Counted from the stretch's first letter, positions 6,013 through 18,179 are shown. The stretch is 64,000 nucleotides of DNA from an uncultured Thalassolituus sp. (GCF_950066645.1 NZ_CATMFB010000001.1:62001-126000); one strand, 5' to 3'. Translations and numbers: made by a program. Notes: generated by a model from the letters alone, not told the origin.

Positions 6013-7002
6013 TTACAGCGGCAGCGCTGGCAATGACATTGGCTGATCTTCGCCCTGAAGCGTTCCCAGAAATGCCTTCAGGTCTTTCATATCCTGCGGT
6101 GTCATCGGCACGGGTTTCATATCGGGAGAGCGCGAAGGGCGTGGCACCCCGCCCGACAGATAGTGCACCAACACTGCATCGAGATTAGGCAGAGAGCCAT
6201 TGTGCATGTAAGGGGCACGCTGCGTGATATTGCGCAACCCCGGGGTTTTGAAAGCATGACGGTTAAGCTCGTCTGAAGGATCAAACGCGTAACGCCCCAG
6301 ATCTTCCGTGGGCATGCCAATGTCGTGGAACTTGTTGTCGGTGAAATTCCAGCCGGTATGACACGCAGAGCAGCCCGCCTGACCGTTGAACAGCTCGAAT
6401 CCTCGTTTGGCAGACTCCGGAATCGCCTCTTCATCACCTTCGATCCAGCGATCGAACGGTGCCTGACCTGACACAATCGTGCGCTCGAAGGTCGCGATCG
6501 CCCGGGCAATGTTCTCTGGCGTAATCTCGCCACCGAAAACCTGATCAAAATACGGCTGATAACCCGCGATGCCTTTCACCCGCGCAATCAGCACATTCAG
6601 CGGCATATTCATTTCAACATCCGCCTGAATCGGCCCCAGTGCCTGCTCCTCCAGCGAGGCCGCGCGGCCATCCCAGAAGTACTTGTTGCCCCAGGCAAGA
6701 TTCAGAACCGTTGGGTTATGGCGGCCCAACTGAGTATTCAGTGCCCCAACAGCAAGCGGCATCGCCTGCTCCCAGCCAAACGACGGGTTGTGACAGGTCG
6801 CGCAACTGATGTTCTGGTTAATGCTCAGGCGTGGATCGAAAAACAGCATCTTACCCAGAGCCGCCTTTTCCGCCTGATACGGGTTATCCGCCGGAAATGG
6901 AATCGTATCCGGACGCTTATACTTGGCTTTTAACTCGTCAGAGCCAGCCGCTGACATATTCGCAACCACCGCCAGAATGACGGCTACCAACCAATGTTTC
7001 AT
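6013..7002 (-). CDS. Di-heme cytochrome c peroxidase / MauG family
   Basis: Signal peptide; two CxxCH motifs (CATCH, CSACH); CCP-like sequence (KAALGKMLFFDPRLS). Confidence 0.92.
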   Translation of the reverse strand: MKHWLVAVILAVVANMSAAGSDELKAKYKRPDTIPFPADNPYQAEKAALGKMLFFDPRLSINQNISCATCHNPSFGWEQAMPLAVGALNTQLGRHNPTVLNLAWGNKYFWDGRAASLEEQALGPIQADVEMNMPLNVLIARVKGIAGYQPYFDQVFGGEITPENIARAIATFERTIVSGQAPFDRWIEGDEEAIPESAKRGFELFNGQAGCSACHTGWNFTDNKFHDIGMPTEDLGRYAFDPSDELNRHAFKTPGLRNITQRAPYMHNGSLPNLDAVLVHYLSGGVPRPSRSPDMKPVPMTPQDMKDLKAFLGTLQGEDQPMSLPALPL

Positions 7003-7206: not shown

Positions 7207-7647
7207 ATGAGTGCCACATTAAGCATCGGGGAACTGTCGAAGCGCAGCGGGCTGGCTGCCTCAAAGATCCGCTTTTATGAAAGCATTGGGTTACTGCGCA
7301 TGGTTAAGCGTAAAGCCAATGGCTATCGGGAATACCCGCCTGAAGCCGCCATTGCACTCAGCCTGATTACAACCGCTCAGAAAGCCGGATTCAGCCTCGA
7401 TGAATTGAAAGGACTGATGCCGGCAGATCTTGATCACTGGGATCACGATGCGCTGGTTGAATCACTGGAAACAAAACTCAAAGAAGTTGAAACCCTGATC
7501 GCCAGCCTGGAAGTGAGTCGTGCGGAGCTGAAAAAAGTATTAGGTCAACTGAATGCCCGCCCGGATGACATTACCTGCACCGACAATGCCCGCCGTATGA
7601 TTAACGAACATATGAGTCAGGCAACAAATACTCAGATCGTTAAATAA
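7207..7647 (+). CDS. MerR family transcriptional regulator
   Basis: MSATLSIGELSKRSGLAASKIRFYESIGLL winged-helix motif; start placed at ATG 7207 rather than the longer ORF start at 7024. Confidence 0.9.
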   Translation: MSATLSIGELSKRSGLAASKIRFYESIGLLRMVKRKANGYREYPPEAAIALSLITTAQKAGFSLDELKGLMPADLDHWDHDALVESLETKLKEVETLIASLEVSRAELKKVLGQLNARPDDITCTDNARRMINEHMSQATNTQIVK

Positions 7648-8323
7648 CAGCCAATACCGCTCTGGCCGTGGCCGACGCAGACCCCGGATTCTGCCCCGTG
7701 ACCAGACGGCCATCCGTCACCACATTCGAGGCAAACGGCAGCCAGGTTTTCTGGTAATCCGCACCACGGTCTTTCATTTCCTGCTCGCAGTTGTACGGCA
7801 CTTTCTTTGCGACGCCGGCTAACACTTCTTCGGTCCAGGAAAAGCCGGTCAGTGAGCGCCCGCTTACGACAAGCCCCCCTTCAGAATCAGGAATATTCAG
7901 CAGGCCACAGTAGCCATGGCAGACTGACGAGACCACTCCACCGTGACCCCAGATACCGCTGGCGAGCTGCTGCAGGCCAACATGATCAGGGAAATCGTAC
8001 ATCACCGCATGACCGCCGGTGTAGAACACCGCATCAAAGTCGGCAGCGTTCAGATCTTCCGGACAGGGCGTATTCTCCAGCAGGCTCATCTTCGCCGGGT
8101 CGTTCAGCCAACGCTTAGCAGACGCATCCAGCGCCGGCCACTTTAACGAGCGTGGCTCCAGCGGCACCTTGCCGCCTTCCGGGCTGACCAGAGTCTGCTG
8201 ATAGCCAGCCGCCTCGAACACATCCCAGGCGTGTGTCAACTCAGACAACCACAGACCGGTCGGATGATCAGTACCCAGATAACGGTCTACATTAGTAACT
8301 ACATGAAGAATGCGCTTTGTCAT
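7640..8323 (-). CDS. DJ-1/PfpI family protein (type 1 glutamine amidotransferase-like), cytosolic
   Basis: Nucleophile elbow SSVCHGYCGLL, FYTGGHAVMYDF; start at M (TKRILHVVTN) 8323, downstream of the predicted MerR promoter. Confidence 0.88.
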   Translation of the reverse strand: MTKRILHVVTNVDRYLGTDHPTGLWLSELTHAWDVFEAAGYQQTLVSPEGGKVPLEPRSLKWPALDASAKRWLNDPAKMSLLENTPCPEDLNAADFDAVFYTGGHAVMYDFPDHVGLQQLASGIWGHGGVVSSVCHGYCGLLNIPDSEGGLVVSGRSLTGFSWTEEVLAGVAKKVPYNCEQEMKDRGADYQKTWLPFASNVVTDGRLVTGQNPGSASATARAVLAVI

Positions 8324-8367
8324 AATTCTCCTGTGTGGGCTCCGGCTCTGTCTGTGGATTACAAGGC

Positions 8368-8398
8368 ACTGTAAGTCTGAAGTAAGGTTTAAGGTCAA
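8368..8398 (-). promoter_or_regulatory. MerR-type promoter/operator P1 (TTGACC-N19-TACAGT)
   Basis: Minus strand TTGACCTTAAACCTTACTTCAGACTTACAGT; 19-bp spacer; shared sequence with four other sites. Confidence 0.7.
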
Positions 8399-8413
8399 CC
8401 CCGATTGCCAAGC

Positions 8414-8444
8414 TTGACCTTAAAGTAATCTTCAACGTTAAAGT
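8414..8444 (+). promoter_or_regulatory. MerR-type promoter/operator P2 (TTGACC-N19-TAAAGT)
   Basis: TTGACCTTAAAGTAATCTTCAACGTTAAAGT; 19-bp spacer; divergent to P1. Confidence 0.75.
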
Positions 8445-8492
8445 GCCCGTCATCGGAATAACCATAGCAATAATTCAAAAGAGGCAGCGACC

Positions 8493-9422
8493 ATGCAGAC
8501 CATACTCGGAGCCAACGGCCAGATAGGACGCGAACTCGCCCGCGAGCTGAAGCAGAACTTCACCAGTGACATCCGCCTCGTCAGCCGTAATCCACAGAAG
8601 ATTAACGACACCGACACTCTGATGAGCGCCAACCTGCTGGATGCTGATCAGACGCGGGATGCCGTCGCCGGGTCTGACATCGTCTACCTGACGGCAGGCC
8701 TGCCGATGGATACCGAGCGCTGGATTCGCGAATGGCCACCGATCATGAAAAACGTGATTGATGCCTGCGCCTTCCATAAGGTGAAACTGGTGTACTTCGA
8801 TAACACCTACATGTATCCGCAGACCGACACACCGCAGACCGAAGACACACCGTTTAAACCACATGGCGACAAAGGCCGCATCCGCGGCGCCATTACCGGA
8901 CAACTGTTAGAGGCGATGAGTGCGGGGCGTGTAGAAGCCTTGATCTGCCGCGCGCCTGAGTTTTACGGCCCGGGCCAGACCCAGAGCATCATAAATGGTC
9001 TGGTGCTGGATGCATTGGTCGCAGGCAAAAAACCGAAAGTCTTCCTTCGTGATGATACTAAGCGCACTCTGATATATACGCCGGATGCATCTCGCGCTAT
9101 GGCACTGCTCGGCAATACACCAGATGCTTATGGCCAGACCTGGCACCTGCCATGCGACGACAATCGCCCGACCTACAAAGAATTCATCAGACTCGCCGCC
9201 GATGCTTACCGGCGCCCATACGAATACACAGTTCTGAAACCCTGGCTGCTGTGGATCGCCGCGAAGTTTAATCCTCAGCGGCGTGACGCCAGCGAGTTGC
9301 TGCCGCGCTATAAACAAGACAATATCTTCGTATCGGATAAATTTAAGAAACGTTTTCCTGACTTTAAAGTCACCACCTTCAGTGAAGGGCTGAAAGCCAC
9401 CGCGGCAGAGCAGAAACACTGA
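8493..9422 (+). CDS. NAD(P)-dependent epimerase/dehydratase-like (SDR/NmrA) protein
   Basis: N-terminal MQTILGANGQIGRELARELKQ Rossmann glycine motif. Confidence 0.85.
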   Translation: MQTILGANGQIGRELARELKQNFTSDIRLVSRNPQKINDTDTLMSANLLDADQTRDAVAGSDIVYLTAGLPMDTERWIREWPPIMKNVIDACAFHKVKLVYFDNTYMYPQTDTPQTEDTPFKPHGDKGRIRGAITGQLLEAMSAGRVEALICRAPEFYGPGQTQSIINGLVLDALVAGKKPKVFLRDDTKRTLIYTPDASRAMALLGNTPDAYGQTWHLPCDDNRPTYKEFIRLAADAYRRPYEYTVLKPWLLWIAAKFNPQRRDASELLPRYKQDNIFVSDKFKKRFPDFKVTTFSEGLKATAAEQKH

Positions 9423-9438
9423 CACCCCCCTGTAACGC

Positions 9439-9469
9439 TTGACCTTCAACCGTACTTCAAGGTGAGCAT
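9439..9469 (+). promoter_or_regulatory. MerR-type promoter/operator P3 (TTGACC-N19-GAGCAT)
   Basis: TTGACCTTCAACCGTACTTCAAGGTGAGCAT; good dyad ACCTTcaAc..gT.cTTcAAGGT, weak -10. Confidence 0.65.
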
Positions 9470-9501
9470 AGAGCCTCAGTTCAGACACAACCGAGGCTCT
9501 T

Positions 9502-10290
9502 ATGCATAACCCGCTCAAATCGCTGGCACTTGCAGCCACACTAACGATCACTGCCTGCGCATCCGTAACTCCCCTAGCCACTCATCCCGACACTGAAGAC
9601 CGCACAATTCTCGTCGTCATGACCAACCACTCAGAGTACCCAACACGGGATGACTCAACCGGCCTATGGCTGACCGAGCTGACCCATTTCACGGATACTG
9701 TTGAAGCGGCGGGTTTTCGTACCGAATTCGTCAGCCCGAAAGGCGGCTCAGTGCCACTCGATGAGCGCAGCCTCAGTTGGATGTACATGGACGATCGCGC
9801 AGAAACCCTGCTCAAAGATGACGGCTTTAGCCAGAAACTTAACAACACCCGTGCGGCCGCAGAGGTGAATCCTGAAGATTACGCCGCGATCTATTTCACC
9901 GGAGGTCATGGCGTTATGTGGGATTTCCGTGGAGATGAATCACTCAACGCACTGACCAGCGCAATTTATCAACAGGGCGGTGTCGTATCGGCCGTATGCC
10001 ACGGGGTTGCTGCCCTGGTCGATCCGGTGGATGAACAGGGTGAGCCACTGATCCAAGGCCGGAAAATCACCGGGTTTTCGAATCGCGAAGAATTCCTTTC
10101 TGGCTTAAAAAATGAAGTGCCCTTTTTTCTTGAAGACGAACTGGTGAAGCAGGGCGCTGACTATCAGAAAGCCTTTATTCCATTCCGCTCGTACGCCATC
10201 ACGGATGGTCGTATCGTCACGGGTCAAAACCCATCTTCTGCACACGCGGTTGCCGTACAGGTCATTGACGCATTAAATAGAAAACAGTGA
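9502..10290 (+). CDS. DJ-1/PfpI family lipoprotein
   Basis: Lipobox LTITACAS; DJ-1 core (FTGGHGVMWDF, SAVCHGVAALV); paralog of 7640-8323. Confidence 0.85.
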   Translation: MHNPLKSLALAATLTITACASVTPLATHPDTEDRTILVVMTNHSEYPTRDDSTGLWLTELTHFTDTVEAAGFRTEFVSPKGGSVPLDERSLSWMYMDDRAETLLKDDGFSQKLNNTRAAAEVNPEDYAAIYFTGGHGVMWDFRGDESLNALTSAIYQQGGVVSAVCHGVAALVDPVDEQGEPLIQGRKITGFSNREEFLSGLKNEVPFFLEDELVKQGADYQKAFIPFRSYAITDGRIVTGQNPSSAHAVAVQVIDALNRKQ

Positions 10291-10322
10291 ATAAACAACA
10301 CTGAATAAAAAGCAGAAAATAA

Positions 10323-10363
10323 AAAACCGGGACTCTAATCACATGATAGAGTCCCGGTTTTAT
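10323..10363. terminator. Bidirectional intrinsic terminator
   Basis: AAAACCGGGACTCTA-atcacatga-TAGAGTCCCGGTTTTatt between convergent genes. Confidence 0.85.
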
Positions 10364-10377
10364 TGTTACGCGGCTAT

Positions 10378-11847
10378 TTATTTAATCCGTGACGACAAGC
10401 CAAGCGTCGTCGCCAATGCCATATCCGCCAGACGCCCGAACGGAGCACGCGCCATCGTTGCCATGTTCCAGCGCCCCTGATGATAAACACCCTTGGCGTG
10501 ACTCATCGAGCGGAAGCCTTCAATGCCGTGGTAAGCGCCCATACCACTGGCCCCGACACCACCAAACGGCAGATCATCCTGCGCCACATGCATGATGGTA
10601 TTGTTGATGCCGACATTCCCCGAGGTAGTCTGCTGCAGAAGCTGCTGACAGGCCTGATCCCGGCCACCCATGTAGTACAGCGCCAGCGGGCGGGGGCGTG
10701 CATTAATAAACGCGACCACTTCATCGATTGTGCGGTAAGTACGCACTGGCAATACCGGCCCGAAGATTTCTTCCTGCATCACTGCGCTGTCGTCCGGCGC
10801 ATTCAGTACCAGCGTGGGTGCAATCGTGCGGGTACGCGAGCGGGCTGCTTCTGGTTGATTGCCCATCCCCAGTACTTTGGCACCCCGGGTACGAGCATCA
10901 TCCAACAGATTGTTCAGCCGCTGATAATGACGTTCACTGACGATAGAGCTGTAATCATCAGAGGCCGCACCACCCGGGTAGGAGCGTTTCACCGATGCCG
11001 AGTATTCCGACACAAACACATCGATATCATCTTCGTGTACCAGAGCATAGTCAGGCGCCACACAGGTCTGCCCCCCATTAGAAAGCTTACCGTAGACAAT
11101 ATTATCGATGTGACGGGAAGTTACCTGACCACGACCCACCACGACCGGGCTCTTACCGCCCAGCTCAAGCGTCACCGGCACCAGATTAGCACTGGCCGCG
11201 CTCATGACCTTACGGCCTACTTCGGTGCTGCCGGTAAAAAACAAATGGTCAAACGGGAGGCCGCTGAAGGCTGCGCCGACTTCCGGGCCACCAAGCACGA
11301 CGGCAACGTCTTCTTCACTGAAGAACTCAGCAACCATATTCCTGATCACCTCGCTCGTCTTTGGCGTCAGTTCCGACGGCTTTAGCATCGCCCGGTTGCC
11401 CGCAGCCAGGGCCGTAGCGAGCGGCACCAGTGTCAGCGAAATCGGATAATTCCACGGCGCCATAATGCCGATCACGCCCTTCGGCTGATACTCGACATGC
11501 GCCGAGGCTGAGCGGAACAACAGACTCACGTGACGCTTTTCCGGCTTCATAAACCGGCGCAGGTTGCGTGCCAGATAATCAATCGACTGAATAATCACCG
11601 TCAGCTCAAGCAGGCCGGTTTCGTAGCGGGAACGATGACCAAAATCGGCATCAACGGCCTCTTCAAGACGCCCGCGATATGCCAGAACGGCCTGTCGCAG
11701 AGTCGCCAGCGACTTTTTACGCTGGCGCATATCCGGAGCACCATCACGCAGGAAGGCATGGCGCTGACGTTCAAGAATGGATTCGGCATACGCCATTTCC
11801 GGAAGACTGTTGTCTGCAACACGCGCGGCTGAATGGGTCATCGTCAT
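10378..11847 (-). CDS. Aldehyde dehydrogenase (coniferyl-aldehyde-dehydrogenase-like)
   Basis: ALDH motifs VTLELGGKSP and GQTCVAPDY; GVIGIMAPWNYP. Confidence 0.92.
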   Translation of the reverse strand: MTMTHSAARVADNSLPEMAYAESILERQRHAFLRDGAPDMRQRKKSLATLRQAVLAYRGRLEEAVDADFGHRSRYETGLLELTVIIQSIDYLARNLRRFMKPEKRHVSLLFRSASAHVEYQPKGVIGIMAPWNYPISLTLVPLATALAAGNRAMLKPSELTPKTSEVIRNMVAEFFSEEDVAVVLGGPEVGAAFSGLPFDHLFFTGSTEVGRKVMSAASANLVPVTLELGGKSPVVVGRGQVTSRHIDNIVYGKLSNGGQTCVAPDYALVHEDDIDVFVSEYSASVKRSYPGGAASDDYSSIVSERHYQRLNNLLDDARTRGAKVLGMGNQPEAARSRTRTIAPTLVLNAPDDSAVMQEEIFGPVLPVRTYRTIDEVVAFINARPRPLALYYMGGRDQACQQLLQQTTSGNVGINNTIMHVAQDDLPFGGVGASGMGAYHGIEGFRSMSHAKGVYHQGRWNMATMARAPFGRLADMALATTLGLSSRIK

Positions 11848-11854
11848 CTCCTGC

Positions 11855-12856
11855 TTAGTGTTGTTCGTTCAACAGTTCATCCAGAGATTCCGGCGCATAC
11901 AAAGCACTCTGGAAATCTGGCACGTAGTCGTAACGGATCATCTTGCCCAGATCGAGTTCACGCAGGTATTCAGAAAAACTGCCGGAGCCCAGCGTCAGCG
12001 ATACCTTGTCGCCATCCATACTGGAGCCGTGCTTCATATGCCGCGATACCGCATGACCCCAGGTGCGCTCACCCTGATGACCAATATTGGTAAAGCTGTT
12101 GGTGACGAAGGTTGGCTGCTCAGAAATATCATTCAGCTTGGCCGTTTCGAGCACGAAATCGACCTTGCCGGTATCGCTGTCCATCACTTCGAACACCAGC
12201 GAAGACGCCTCTTCACGATAATGAATACCCGTCACCCATTTCGGCAGGTTATAACCAACTACGCCGCGCACCGCCGCAAGTTTGGTATCGACCGGCAACT
12301 TCAGCACGTAGCCCCAGAAGCTGGCATCTTTGCCCTGGCCAATCAGACTCAGAGGCCCAAAGGTAGAGCCGCCTGGTTTGTTGGTCACAATCGCCAGCGA
12401 AATTTCGTTATAAGTGTCGTTGTCGCAGTAGTGATAAGCATACGCCGTCAGCGCCACCAGGCCACGGCCCGGCCAGATCTTCAGCGGCTGCACATCGTCC
12501 ATCAACTCAACTGGCATCAGCTCACGCAAGCGATCGATGTCGGCAGTAAAAATCGCCGTTACCTTCGTATTCTCGTAGTAGAAGTTCGGCGAGTAGGTCT
12601 CGAATCCAACATCCAGCTTTTCTTTCTTCAACGTTCTGAACCAGCTCAGATCTGTATCTGGTGATTCGTCTGCAATCACCGACAGAGGCGGATTCGAACG
12701 GAAACGGTCGTACAGGCCGTCTTTCACAACGGGCACCTGATGGCCCGCCAGCTCAATCGTCACGTGTTCAACATCATCCGTATCTGCCGCCATCACTTGA
12801 TGAGAGGCCGCACTGAACAGCAGCGCAGAAGCCGCCAGAAGTTTGATCACTTTCAT
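11855..12856 (-). CDS. Acetoacetate decarboxylase superfamily protein with signal peptide
   Basis: Sec signal MKVIKLLAASALLFSAASHQVMA; ADC-like middle region (LMPVEL, YNEISLAIVT, YNLPKWVTGI). Confidence 0.75.
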   Translation of the reverse strand: MKVIKLLAASALLFSAASHQVMAADTDDVEHVTIELAGHQVPVVKDGLYDRFRSNPPLSVIADESPDTDLSWFRTLKKEKLDVGFETYSPNFYYENTKVTAIFTADIDRLRELMPVELMDDVQPLKIWPGRGLVALTAYAYHYCDNDTYNEISLAIVTNKPGGSTFGPLSLIGQGKDASFWGYVLKLPVDTKLAAVRGVVGYNLPKWVTGIHYREEASSLVFEVMDSDTGKVDFVLETAKLNDISEQPTFVTNSFTNIGHQGERTWGHAVSRHMKHGSSMDGDKVSLTLGSGSFSEYLRELDLGKMIRYDYVPDFQSALYAPESLDELLNEQH

Positions 12857-12898
12857 TCTTATTCTCCTGTGTAGGTGGTGTGGTTATCCACCTGAGCC

Positions 12899-12929
12899 AC
12901 TCTAAGGTTAAAGCCGAGTTTAAGGTCAA
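12899..12929 (-). promoter_or_regulatory. MerR-type promoter/operator P4 (TTGACC-N19-TAGAGT)
   Basis: Minus strand TTGACCTTAAACTCGGCTTTAACCTTAGAGT upstream of 11855-12856 and 10378-11847. Confidence 0.75.
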
Positions 12930-14155
12930 GCATCGGAGGCCATCTTTTTACGATAGCGGCGGGACAGTAGGGCATCATCGATCTGATTGAGGATAAGCGC
13001 CCACAATGGCGAGACAGCAGGGTTAGACGGTCGCTTTCGGGCGTTCTTTACCAGCTGATACTTCACCACAGACATATAGGCGAGGGAGGCCAGCGGTTTG
13101 TTCTTCCACGTGATGGGCGACAGCTCAGGCGTGCGTTCCTGGCCACGCTTCCAGGCCGCCGGCAACTGCGGATCAATCGCCAGCGCAGTCGCAATACCGA
13201 CCATCTCGATCCCACTCTCGACCACCTGCTCAGCCACAGGCAAACGACGAATGCCACCCGTGACCATCACCGGCATATTGGCTACCGCACGGATATCGTT
13301 TGCGAACTCAAGAAAATACGCCTCGCGTGCCAGCGTCCGACCATCACGCGCAGTACCGTGCATCGCCGGTGCCTCATAACTGCCACCCGACAGCTCAACC
13401 AGATCGACCGACATATCGTTCAACATGCGAATCACCCGGCGGGCGTCTTCCTGATCAAAGCCACCGCGCTGAAAATCCGCCGAGTTAATCTTCACCGCAA
13501 CAGCAAACTCCGGTGCAACACGAGCACGAATGCCCTCAACGATACGCAGCAGCATACGTGCACGATTCTCCAGCGAACCGCCCCACTGATCCGAACGCCT
13601 GTTAGTCAACGGCGACAGAAACTGGCTTAGCAGATAGCCATGCGCTGCATGCACCTCAACGCCATCAAAGCCGGCCTGCTCAGCAAGAACCGCAGTATTT
13701 ACAAAGCAGGCGATGATCTCTTCGATCTTGCCCTCAGACATCGCCTTCGGCGCTTTAAAAAACTTCGAAAGCTTGCCCAGCTCCACCGACACCTCCGACG
13801 GCGCCCAGGTCTGCTGAGCCAACGTCGCTGGCATCTGACGCCCCGGATGATTGATCTGCATCCACACCTGACCACCGCCAGACTTCGCTGCCTGCGCCCA
13901 GCGCTTAAACTGTTTCAGATGCTTATCGTCTTCCAGCACCACACCACCGGGACCTGTCATCGCACGGCTGTCGACCATCACGTTACCAGTGATCAACAGA
14001 CCCGCACCGCCGTCGGCCCAGGTTTCATACAACTTCAGTAACTTTTCAGAAGGCGCAAAGCCATCGCCCGCCATGTTCTCTTCCATAGCGGCCTTAGCAA
14101 TACGGTTAGGAATAACGCCACCATTCGGTAGCTTGAGTTCGGTAAACAGGGTCAT
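12926..14155 (-). CDS. NADH:flavin oxidoreductase / Old Yellow Enzyme family
   Basis: MTLFTELKLPNGGVIPNRIAKAAMEE; GFDGVEVHAAHGYLLSQFLSPLTNRRSDQWGGSLENRARML; start moved to 14155 because the promoter lies inside the longer ORF. Confidence 0.93.
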   Translation of the reverse strand: MTLFTELKLPNGGVIPNRIAKAAMEENMAGDGFAPSEKLLKLYETWADGGAGLLITGNVMVDSRAMTGPGGVVLEDDKHLKQFKRWAQAAKSGGGQVWMQINHPGRQMPATLAQQTWAPSEVSVELGKLSKFFKAPKAMSEGKIEEIIACFVNTAVLAEQAGFDGVEVHAAHGYLLSQFLSPLTNRRSDQWGGSLENRARMLLRIVEGIRARVAPEFAVAVKINSADFQRGGFDQEDARRVIRMLNDMSVDLVELSGGSYEAPAMHGTARDGRTLAREAYFLEFANDIRAVANMPVMVTGGIRRLPVAEQVVESGIEMVGIATALAIDPQLPAAWKRGQERTPELSPITWKNKPLASLAYMSVVKYQLVKNARKRPSNPAVSPLWALILNQIDDALLSRRYRKKMASDA

Positions 14156-14186
14156 GTTGGTCACCTCAGTTTTGGTTGATGAGGTG

Positions 14187-14217
14187 ACCTTAACCTTCAA
14201 GGGAACTTTAAGGTCAA
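14187..14217 (-). promoter_or_regulatory. MerR-type promoter/operator P5 (TTGACC-N19-TAAGGT)
   Basis: Minus strand TTGACCTTAAAGTTCCCTTGAAGGTTAAGGT. Confidence 0.75.
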
Positions 14218-14773: not shown

Positions 14774-15145
14774 ATGGAAACGAAACAGGCAACTTCCGTT
14801 CTTGAAGAAACCCGCACTTACCACCACGGCATCGGCCTCAGAGGCGAACTCACACTGGAGACTGTTATCCGCTACCGCGCCGCTGTTGCTATCGAATGGA
14901 TCAAAGAAGATCTGCGCAGAGGCGTGCAACCTGAAAACATAAAGACCTTCTCTGAACTGCACGACGTTGTAGACGCCAGCATGTACCTGTTAGATGAAGA
15001 CCACCCGATACCGAAGGCCGGTAACTTCTACGATTGGGAAGAACTGGATGTAGAAGGTGTAAACATACAGCTCACAAGAATGATGGACATCATCAATGAC
15101 TGGCTCGAGACGCGGGATTACGTCAGGAATCACCCGCTACAGTGA
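14774..15145 (+). CDS. Hypothetical protein (123 aa), predicted SOS-regulated
   Basis: ORF preceded by a ribosome-binding-like GGAG and a LexA box; no family recognised. Confidence 0.7.
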   Translation: METKQATSVLEETRTYHHGIGLRGELTLETVIRYRAAVAIEWIKEDLRRGVQPENIKTFSELHDVVDASMYLLDEDHPIPKAGNFYDWEELDVEGVNIQLTRMMDIINDWLETRDYVRNHPLQ

Positions 15146-15578
15146 GAAAGTGCTGATCTGAGGCCAGCCAATCAGAAAGCTCGTCGACAACTGCACTCAG
15201 ATCCTTTCTGTGCTTGCCACGGATGCTGCATTCCCAGACCACAGCAACGCGCCAGCCGACATTCAGAAGTAAGTTGATATTGCGCTCATCGCGCTCGTAA
15301 TTGGCATTCAGCTTTTCCCGCCAGAACTCCTCGCGGGAAGAAGGCCAGTGAAACATAGGGCAAGCATGGCGATGCCAGAAGCAACCGTGGACGAAGATCG
15401 TAGCGCGGTACTTAGGTAGCACCAGATCTGGCGAGCCTGGCAGCGCACGGTTATGCAGACGGAACCGGAAGCCACGAGCATGCAAGGCACGCCGGATCAG
15501 CATTTCCGGCTTTGTGTCTTTACCCCGGATAGCCGACATATTGCGGCTCCGGGTAGCAGGGGAGTGGACATCTGACAT
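15123..15578 (-). CDS. vsr: Very short patch repair endonuclease (Vsr)
   Basis: [42 protein letters not shown]...; [26 protein letters not shown]. Confidence 0.95.
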
Positions 15579-15602
15579 ACTGCTCCCGAATGGAATGAAT
15601 CA

Positions 15603-16988
15603 GTGATAATATGTCACACAATTGACCTGGAGAAAGAAATGGCCACTGAACAACTCGCGCTAATCACTGACGGCTATGACGATGTATCAGACGCCACGCT
15701 TATCAGTCAGTTGCTTGAGATCTATGATCAGAAGGCTATTGCCGACTTTCTCAATTCTGTGACTCCCGGACACTGGTGCCGCGAAACCATTAATCGCTGG
15801 AGCAAAGGTAAGTCAGAACCTCGCCTCAGTGCAAAAGAATTCAAAGCCCTTAAAGGCCTTCTGCCGAAAGAAAAAGTTCATCCAGATAAAGCCAAATTCA
15901 AGTTTATTGACTTGTTTGCGGGTATTGGCGGAATCCGTAAAGGCTTTGAAGACGAGGGCGGTCTTTGCGTCTTCACCAGCGAATGGAACAAGTTTGCTGC
16001 GCGTACCTACAAGGCAAATTACTACAGTCACGGTGATTACCACACCTTCAATGAAGATATCAGGGATGTAACGCTGTCATCTGACGAAACCGTTTCTGAA
16101 GAAGAGGCCTATCAGAATATCGACAGAATGATTCCGGATCACGACATTCTGTTAGCCGGGTTCCCATGTCAGCCCTTTTCTATTGCTGGAGTTTCAAAGA
16201 AAAATTCTTTAGGTCGTGCTCATGGTTTTGAGTGCAATACACAAGGAACTCTGTTCTTTGACGTCGCACGTATTATCAAAGCCAAGCAACCAAAAGCATT
16301 TGTTCTTGAGAATGTTAAAAATCTGAAAAGCCACGACAAGGGCAAAACCTTCAAGATCATCATGCAAACCCTTGATGAGCTTGGCTACTGGGTTGCTGAT
16401 TCAGATCACGAAGGTCCCAAAGACCCTAAAGTGATTGATGCAAAAAATTGGGTTCCTCAGCACCGTGAACGAATTGTTCTTGTAGGATTCCGCAAAGACC
16501 TGAACATCCATGAAGGCTTCACCCTGAAAGATATTCGCAAGTACTACCCTAAAAAGAAGATCACCCTTGGTGACATCTTTGATCAGGACGTCGACGCCAA
16601 ATACACACTGACTCCAAAGCTTTGGGAATACCTCCATAACTATGCGATTAAGCATAAGGAAAAGGGAAATGGCTTCGGTTTTGGTCTGGTCGGCCCCAAC
16701 GATGTCGCACGTACGTTGTCTGCACGATACTACAAAGACGGATCGGAAATACTCGTTGATCGAGGCTGGAACTTCAGTAAAGGATTTGGAGATAATACGA
16801 ATCTTGAGAATCGCCCAAGACGGCTTACTCCATATGAGTGCGCCAAATTAATGGGGTTCTCTTCAATCAATGGTAATGATTTCAGAATTCCAGTGTCTGA
16901 TACGCAGGCGTACAAGCAGTTTGGCAATTCCGTAGTCGTGCCCGTATTTCAATCGGTAGCCAAACTGCTATTAAAAAGAATCTTATAA
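15603..16988 (+). CDS. dcm: DNA (cytosine-5-)-methyltransferase, Dcm/M.EcoRII-like (predicted CCWGG)
   Basis: [59 protein letters not shown]; very close to remembered E. coli Dcm. Confidence 0.95.
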
Positions 16989-18179
16989 CTTAACTTCGTT
17001 AATGAAATCCTTAAACGATATAACTGTCGAAGAGCTATCGTATGTTGGATGTAGTGCAGATGGTACAACTAGCTGAACATTTTCGGCCACCATCTCATCG
17101 ATTTGCTGCTTGGAAATAGCTGGCTGCAAAGTTATTAAGTGCTTGGTATTAATCCTTCGAGCCTCTGGAAGAATCTGACGCCAACGATCCTTACAGGTCG
17201 TTTTCGCACCCAGCATATGTAGCTTCTTATCAGGGTAGTTAGCATCTAAATACTGAGTTATTCCTGGGAAAATAAAGTCTGGTTTTCTGTTACCCTCTGT
17301 CTTTTTTCCTCTGGAGAAAAGGACTGCGTTCTGCATCAAGATCTCTTCGATATGATTTTCAAAAGCATGACCAACTCTCGACTTTCTTCTATTCTGAACA
17401 GATAGTGAAAATGAAATAAATTCATCTACATTGTCGTTAAATCCAGCTTTCAACTTTCTTTCAACAATCTCTTTTTCGATAGCCCTGAACATCGATTCCT
17501 CGACCGACATCCAATGCATCAGACTTCCGTCTGGATCATCCACAGGGGATACAACTGACGAGTTATTCCTGGCATACTGAGACAGATCCTTTGTCTTTGG
17601 AAATACACCTTTAAATGTAGAAAGCAGTTTTTTGACATCAAAACTCTCTGAACTACCTAGTTCCACACCATATCTGGACAAAATGATATTTAATGGGAGT
17701 TGGACCTGATTTTTAAAGGTATCGATTTTCCGGAATTTTTCACCAGATGCATCTTCAATGCTAAAAATATTGACCAGTTCATTTTTATAGGAACTGTCAG
17801 GATCGCAAAATATTATAAGTAAGCGGTTTGTTTTAGTGACTGCAACTAGTAAGAAATCCCCTTCCGATGCAGAATGTACGGCACTGCATGAGGGGTAATA
17901 TAAACGCCACTCGGGACCTCTGTTTGGATTTTGGAAACGAACGTCGTACCAGGTAACCTCTTCCTCCGAAACTACCGGATCAGCATTGTCAGAAAGGTGA
18001 ACGATTTCAGCGGCATACTTATATTGAGTTCCGTCGTTCCGACTACCCAGAACTTCCTTTAGTCCTGCTTGCACCAAACCACCCAATTCGTGTTGATTCG
18101 ATGATTCAGGATCAACATCTACTGCACTCGAGAACTTAAATGCTACTGCAGAAAAAACGTCACTAACTTTTTCAAACAC
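16983..18179 (-). CDS. Type II restriction endonuclease, EcoRII-like
   Basis: C-terminal [22 protein letters not shown]...[12 protein letters not shown]...[21 protein letters not shown]...[11 protein letters not shown] matches the EcoRII catalytic domain. Confidence 0.9.

Follow-up and report, generated by a model that had tools for sequence, protein, structure and literature searches.

Common operator sites next to a MerR-family gene

A 64,000-nucleotide stretch of DNA from an uncultured Thalassolituus sp. (GCF_950066645.1, NZ_CATMFB010000001.1:62001-126000), called the window below, carries a gene for a MerR-family regulator close to five intergenic sites of the form TTGACC-N19-hexamer and to six genes for enzymes or exported proteins. 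The question raised by this locus is whether the regulator controls these genes through the five sites, and to what end. The sites are very probably one operator-promoter element that accompanies this regulator's lineage across Proteobacteria, and the best overall explanation, to which we give a probability of about 0.65, is a MerR-controlled regulon directed against electrophiles or carbonyls. The regulator and the sites are the following (HTH, helix-turn-helix; SDR, short-chain dehydrogenase/reductase; ADC, acetoacetate decarboxylase; ALDH, aldehyde dehydrogenase; OYE, Old Yellow Enzyme).

7207..7647 (+), MerR-family regulator, 146 aa, CueR-like HTH, single cysteine C124 (Pfam MerR_1/MerR/MerR-DNA-bind)
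8368..8398 (-), operator-promoter 1, TTGACC-N19-TACAGT, matrix score 30.7, predicted to drive the cytosolic DJ-1 gene; weakest dyad, 4/11 pairs
8414..8444 (+), operator-promoter 2, TTGACC-N19-TAAAGT, matrix score 37.3, predicted to drive the SDR gene
9439..9469 (+), operator-promoter 3, TTGACC-N19-GAGCAT, matrix score 34.4, predicted to drive the DJ-1 lipoprotein gene
12899..12929 (-), operator-promoter 4, TTGACC-N19-TAGAGT, matrix score 42.6, predicted to drive the ADC-fold and ALDH genes
14187..14217 (-), operator-promoter 5, TTGACC-N19-TAAGGT, matrix score 40.3, predicted to drive the OYE gene; best dyad, 8/11 pairs

Re-reading the sequence returned the five sites with the coordinates, strands and 19-base spacers given in the original prediction. 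A dyad had also been claimed for most spacers; it is fair at four sites (7-8 of 11 complementary pairs) and weak at 8368-8398(-), with 4 of 11. The -10 hexamer reads TAnnnT at four window sites, the exception being GAGCAT at 9439-9469.

Motif scans were carried out by pattern matching over the 3.7-Mb genome. The string TTGACCTTMAA gave 7 matches, namely the five sites and two positions within other reading frames. With up to 2 mismatches allowed, TTGACCTTNAANNNNNCTTNAANNTNA retrieved the five sites only, two of which matched on both strands, and its reversed control retrieved 0. A scoring matrix of 33 positions, trained on 29 sites of other genomes and none from the window, scored the five sites between 30.7 and 42.6, compared to a maximum of 12.1 in 100 Markov-1 simulated windows of 64 kb. 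A chance match is thus ruled out by the uniqueness of the pattern in the genome, the empty reversed control and scores far above the simulated maximum.

MerR-family activators work on promoters whose over-long spacer, 19-20 bp, contains a dyad. The spacer measures 19 bp at all five window sites and across genomes, as expected for a promoter of the MerR superfamily, and the consensus dyad ACCTTNAAGTT/AACTTNAAGGT, 22 bp long, is centred within this spacer region between -35 and -10. Position 31 of the matrix, the T of the -10, is invariant in the training sites although it was not demanded, which means that the 19-bp spacing between TTGACC and TAnnnT is fixed independently. Covariation between the dyad arms is slight, with a mean of 7.97 pairs versus 7.65 when the arms were dealt anew (61 of 2000 deals were as high), so that the dyad rests on column conservation and not on covariation.

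The motif accompanies one MerR lineage

Conservation of the motif upstream of orthologues had been set beforehand as a check, and it was observed in Alpha-, Beta- and Gammaproteobacteria, where the motif co-occurs with the MerR lineage. Close orthologues of the regulator, 43-57% identical, were present in six relatives and in 23 named Proteobacteria, their neighbourhoods containing the same motif. The order was represented by 56 genomes; 8 of them contain the strict motif, the same 8 that have the MerR lineage, and 0 of the 48 others do (p 7e-10). In a phylum sample of 398 genomes, 28 had the motif, 28 the lineage (E at most 1e-30) and 25 both (p about 4e-33, kinship uncorrected). The three genomes with the regulator and without the strict motif have a near-consensus site, scoring 30.8-36.5. 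Two of the three motif-only genomes carry a CueR-like MerR adjoining a peroxiredoxin, and the last one looks like chance.

Sites scoring above 20 numbered 75 in 0.47 Mb of lineage loci (training sites included), against 1 in 0.81 Mb of control loci, those of MerR proteins outside the lineage. When the proteins of a 151-member MerR tree are labelled by site, 6 changes suffice, compared to 47.8 for shuffled labels. For two lineage members without a nearby site, sites were found 4-6 kb away; in Pseudoalteromonas xiamenensis the MerR is present and no site was detected within 6 kb. The same arrangement was recovered in named records that had been held out, namely a plasmid of Agrobacterium pusense and Acinetobacter baumannii. 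A natural control for the link between site and regulator is provided by G002, a genome of the same genus, where the SDR gene lies beside a cytochrome c peroxidase gene but neither the MerR lineage nor a site is present.

At L162 354-1499 (and in L163), a CueR-like MerR having two cysteines close to its C terminus adjoins a peroxiredoxin gene with the operator in front of it; a CcdA-like gene lies on the other side. This MerR may represent another lineage that uses the same operator.

A CueR-like regulator with a single cysteine

The regulator scores above cut-off for PF13411, PF00376 and PF09278, and its modelled helix at 80-116 completes the N-terminal winged HTH and dimerisation helix typical of the family. 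CueR is nearest to its HTH, both among solved structures and among NCBIfam models. The protein nevertheless lies below every NCBIfam equivalog cut-off: 65 versus 147 for CueR, 42.2 bits versus 175 for NmlR and 40.8 bits versus 116.9 for SoxR, the scores with the curated CueR, ZntR and MerR(Hg) models all being far below cut-off. Of 63 lineage members, 61 keep C124 and 46 have no other cysteine. The structure model places C124 at the start of the last helix, just past the dimerisation helix, in the region that binds metal in CueR and related sensors. Judged by sequence, the lineage is distinct from SoxR, NmlR/AdhR, CueR, ZntR and MerR(Hg).

Enzymes behind the sites

The six genes predicted to depend on the sites are listed below.

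7640..8323 (-), cytosolic Hsp31-like DJ-1/PfpI protein of glyoxalase III type (Pfam PF01965; PDB relatives YDR533c/Hsp31 and glyoxalase III)
8493..9422 (+), atypical SDR, NAD-dependent epimerase-like (Pfam Epimerase)
9502..10290 (+), exported Hsp31-like DJ-1 protein with lipobox LTITAC (Pfam PF01965; YDR533c alignment; exported relatives)
10378..11847 (-), class-3-type ALDH (Pfam PF00171; PDB matches; a relative annotated coniferyl aldehyde dehydrogenase)
11855..12856 (-), exported ADC-fold protein (AlphaFold2 (AF2) model and Foldseek; PF06314 on relatives)
12926..14155 (-), OYE, FMN ene-reductase family, with HAAHGY motif (Pfam PF00724; PDB matches)

The family assignments made earlier for the DJ-1, OYE and ALDH proteins held up. 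Both DJ-1 proteins are Hsp31/glyoxalase-III-like by their PDB relatives and by alignment with YDR533c; the lipoprotein keeps the catalytic Glu and the Cys-His (VCHG) of YDR533c, and the cytosolic copy reads GLWLSE and SVCHG. Pfam and PDB matches concur for OYE and for ALDH, the latter of class-3 type and encoded 7 bp past the ADC-fold gene. The window ADC-fold protein itself had no Pfam match, and a PDB profile search was also empty. Its AF2 model (pLDDT 87.7) matches the ADC structure 3bgt in Foldseek with an E of 5.8e-12 and a probability of 1.00, and matches the aldolase-dehydratase family as well. PF06314 is above cut-off in two relatives, so that Pfam on relatives and structure prediction agree with the fold first proposed. 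E151 and K206 are invariant in 15 relatives and are candidates for the acidic partner and the Schiff-base lysine of an ADC site. The SDR is highly conserved and its alignment lacks the canonical YxxxK; no PDB relative was matched. All enzyme families of the regulon act on carbonyls or enones.

Across genomes, OYE is the commonest target (23 loci with an upstream site), with ADC-fold and DJ-1 genes found downstream of sites 11 times each, SDR 9 times and merR 4 times. In some 30 genomes, the distance from site to gene is 20-110 bp for OYE, ADC, SDR, DJ-1 and merR, the OYE start codon typically lying 26-31 bases past the end of the 33-base site. The smallest and commonest form consists of merR divergent from OYE. 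Sites far from merR in other genomes head ADC, OYE, ADC-SDR-DJ1 or ADC-DJ1 units; since these distant sites again precede the same units, the regulon is scattered over the genome while its members stay the same.

Two other gene types were observed in these clusters. Saccharopine-dehydrogenase-like NADP-binding proteins, likely further members of the regulon, follow an operator site in three genomes (L147 1501-2734, L062 6383-7833 and L070 11771-12988). An alpha/beta hydrolase recurs (L063 4290-5120, L059 7068-7925, L077 4683-5780 and L233 5034-5870), directly behind an operator site in the case of L059.

Comparison with known systems

The closest parallel in the MerR family is offered by NmlR and AdhR (YraB), whose regulons answer formaldehyde and methylglyoxal (PMC4776306). 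These are also one-component regulators with a conserved cysteine, located near carbonyl-handling genes, and B. subtilis AdhR controls in addition YraA, a gene of the DJ-1/PfpI kind that the review terms a cysteine proteinase (PMC4776306). However, NmlR/AdhR require a conserved cysteine 52/54 after the HTH (PMC4776306), which is absent here, the only cysteine being the C-terminal C124. Membership in NmlR was rejected for this reason and for the low score reported above; the lineage and the operator sequence differ too, and AdhC is not among the targets. SoxR shares the family, a redox theme and a long-spacer promoter, but has four C-terminal cysteines for its [2Fe-2S] cluster where this regulator has one, and was rejected on the missing motif and the score.

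Outside the family, E. coli NemR-NemA-GloA puts an OYE-family reductase and dicarbonyl detoxification under an electrophile-sensing regulator (PMC7464077). The pairing of OYE with dicarbonyl-handling enzymes is alike. NemR, in contrast, belongs to the TetR-family repressors and has six cysteines, whereas the regulator here is of the MerR family and has one, the promoters have spacers of 19 bp, and the regulon further includes ADC-fold, SDR, ALDH and exported DJ-1 proteins. No published description of such a regulon was found in the full texts of an open-access library (subscription journals and regulon databases lay outside the scope), where the motif string retrieved unrelated papers only.

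Proposed mechanism and alternatives

The operator and the membership of the regulon are the firmest part of the explanation, and we regard them as strongly supported. Activation through a MerR-type promoter is highly probable by analogy with the family: a MerR dimer would bind the 22-bp dyad ACCTTNAAGTT-AACTTNAAGGT between the -35 TTGACC and the -10 TAnnnT, at five promoters with over-long spacers that would drive six genes; once modified or bound by the inducer, the protein would deform the spacer and thereby let RNA polymerase open the promoter, as for other MerR-family activators. The enzyme families and the lone cysteine, for their part, point to electrophile or carbonyl sensing and removal, a role that we consider probable, with less assurance. 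The likeliest inducer would be an electrophilic organic compound or a reactive carbonyl, such as an enone, enal, quinone or dicarbonyl, reacting with or binding near C124 in the loop corresponding to the CueR metal site. Removal in the cytoplasm would then involve OYE on activated C=C bonds, Hsp31-like DJ-1 on dicarbonyls, ALDH on aldehydes, and the SDR, while the exported DJ-1 and ADC-fold proteins may act in the envelope. The regulon interpretation of the original prediction is thus supported, and its carbonyl/electrophile part is plausible.

Several observations weigh against this explanation. In the window, merR (7207..7647) has no upstream site, its best matrix score being -19.7, and the dyad of the first site (8368-8398) is weak. 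In two genomes the motif goes with another type of MerR, which is CueR-like, meaning that the motif is not absolutely exclusive. Finally, glutathione or thiol-repair genes, which are part of some electrophile responses, are missing from the regulon.

The main rival keeps the same regulon and promoter mechanism and gives them a catabolic role: MerR would respond to one growth substrate, such as an aromatic, terpenoid or steroid carbonyl, whose breakdown the enzymes would carry out stepwise. OYE, ADC-fold, SDR and ALDH proteins, with the alpha/beta hydrolase of some genomes, could make a pathway; the closest solved relative of the ALDH is a steroid aldehyde dehydrogenase, and a related ALDH carries the coniferyl aldehyde annotation listed above. 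Membership is nevertheless mosaic, the commonest form, merR and OYE alone, being no pathway; transporter or ring-cleavage genes do not recur, and two glyoxalase III-type DJ-1 proteins would be unusual for a catabolic operon. We consider this alternative rather unlikely, although the present data cannot cleanly part catabolism from detoxification.

A metal sensor of CueR/ZntR type, with enzymes answering metal-induced damage, is far less credible. CueR and its relatives share with this regulator the promoter layout and a cysteine in the loop past the dimerisation helix; the CueR-like HTH and the outer arms ACCTT/AAGGT, which resemble CueR-type sites, would fit a metal sensor. However, CueR, ZntR and MerR(Hg) have two or three metal-binding cysteines, two in CueR, as compared to C124 alone, and efflux pump, chaperone or metal oxidase genes were found behind none of the sites. 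With the scores below curated cut-offs and no metal-handling genes, a metal regulon was rejected.

That the sites belong to another regulator, MerR being an incidental neighbour, is the least probable alternative: the siteless merR of the window and the different MerR type of two genomes would agree with it, but motif and lineage co-occur in both the 56- and the 398-genome sets, the site label tracks the MerR tree, the dyad within a 19-bp spacer is a MerR-family layout, and several genomes have a site at merR itself.

Neighbouring features

A gene for a di-haem cytochrome c peroxidase of the MauG family (6013-7002) is oriented divergently to merR and lacks an operator site. As its counterpart in G002 borders the SDR orthologue, this gene flanks a variable region. 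On the other side, an island resembling a restriction-modification locus, with a lower G+C (0.40-0.51), occupies 15123-18179, flanked by the regulon on one side and by the dnaA/dnaN/recF/gyrB region (from 23.5 kb) on the other, and encodes a Vsr-like endonuclease, a DNA cytosine methyltransferase and one further ORF. The corresponding place in G002 is taken by a methyltransferase-bearing island that differs from this one. A small protein of 123-126 aa with no Pfam match is kept in the window (14774-15145) and in G002 (L224 11694-12074), and adjoins the methyltransferase island in both although the islands differ.

Significance

These results define a regulon that can be tested in Pseudomonas, Burkholderia, Stenotrophomonas, Ralstonia, Acinetobacter, Agrobacterium, Gluconobacter and others; its operator is specific enough for sequence searches to reveal new members without further evidence, and its regulator offers one cysteine as a defined target for mutation. 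The regulon would give a physiological context to orphan ene-reductases, ADC-fold proteins and SDRs, and it provides a candidate biosensor for enones or aldehydes. More tentatively, the lineage may represent a Proteobacteria-wide one-component electrophile sensor, in which a CueR-like scaffold would have kept one of its two metal cysteines for organic carbonyls and enones, at the head of a mosaic defence regulon of cytoplasm and envelope that would put the ADC fold to a new use.

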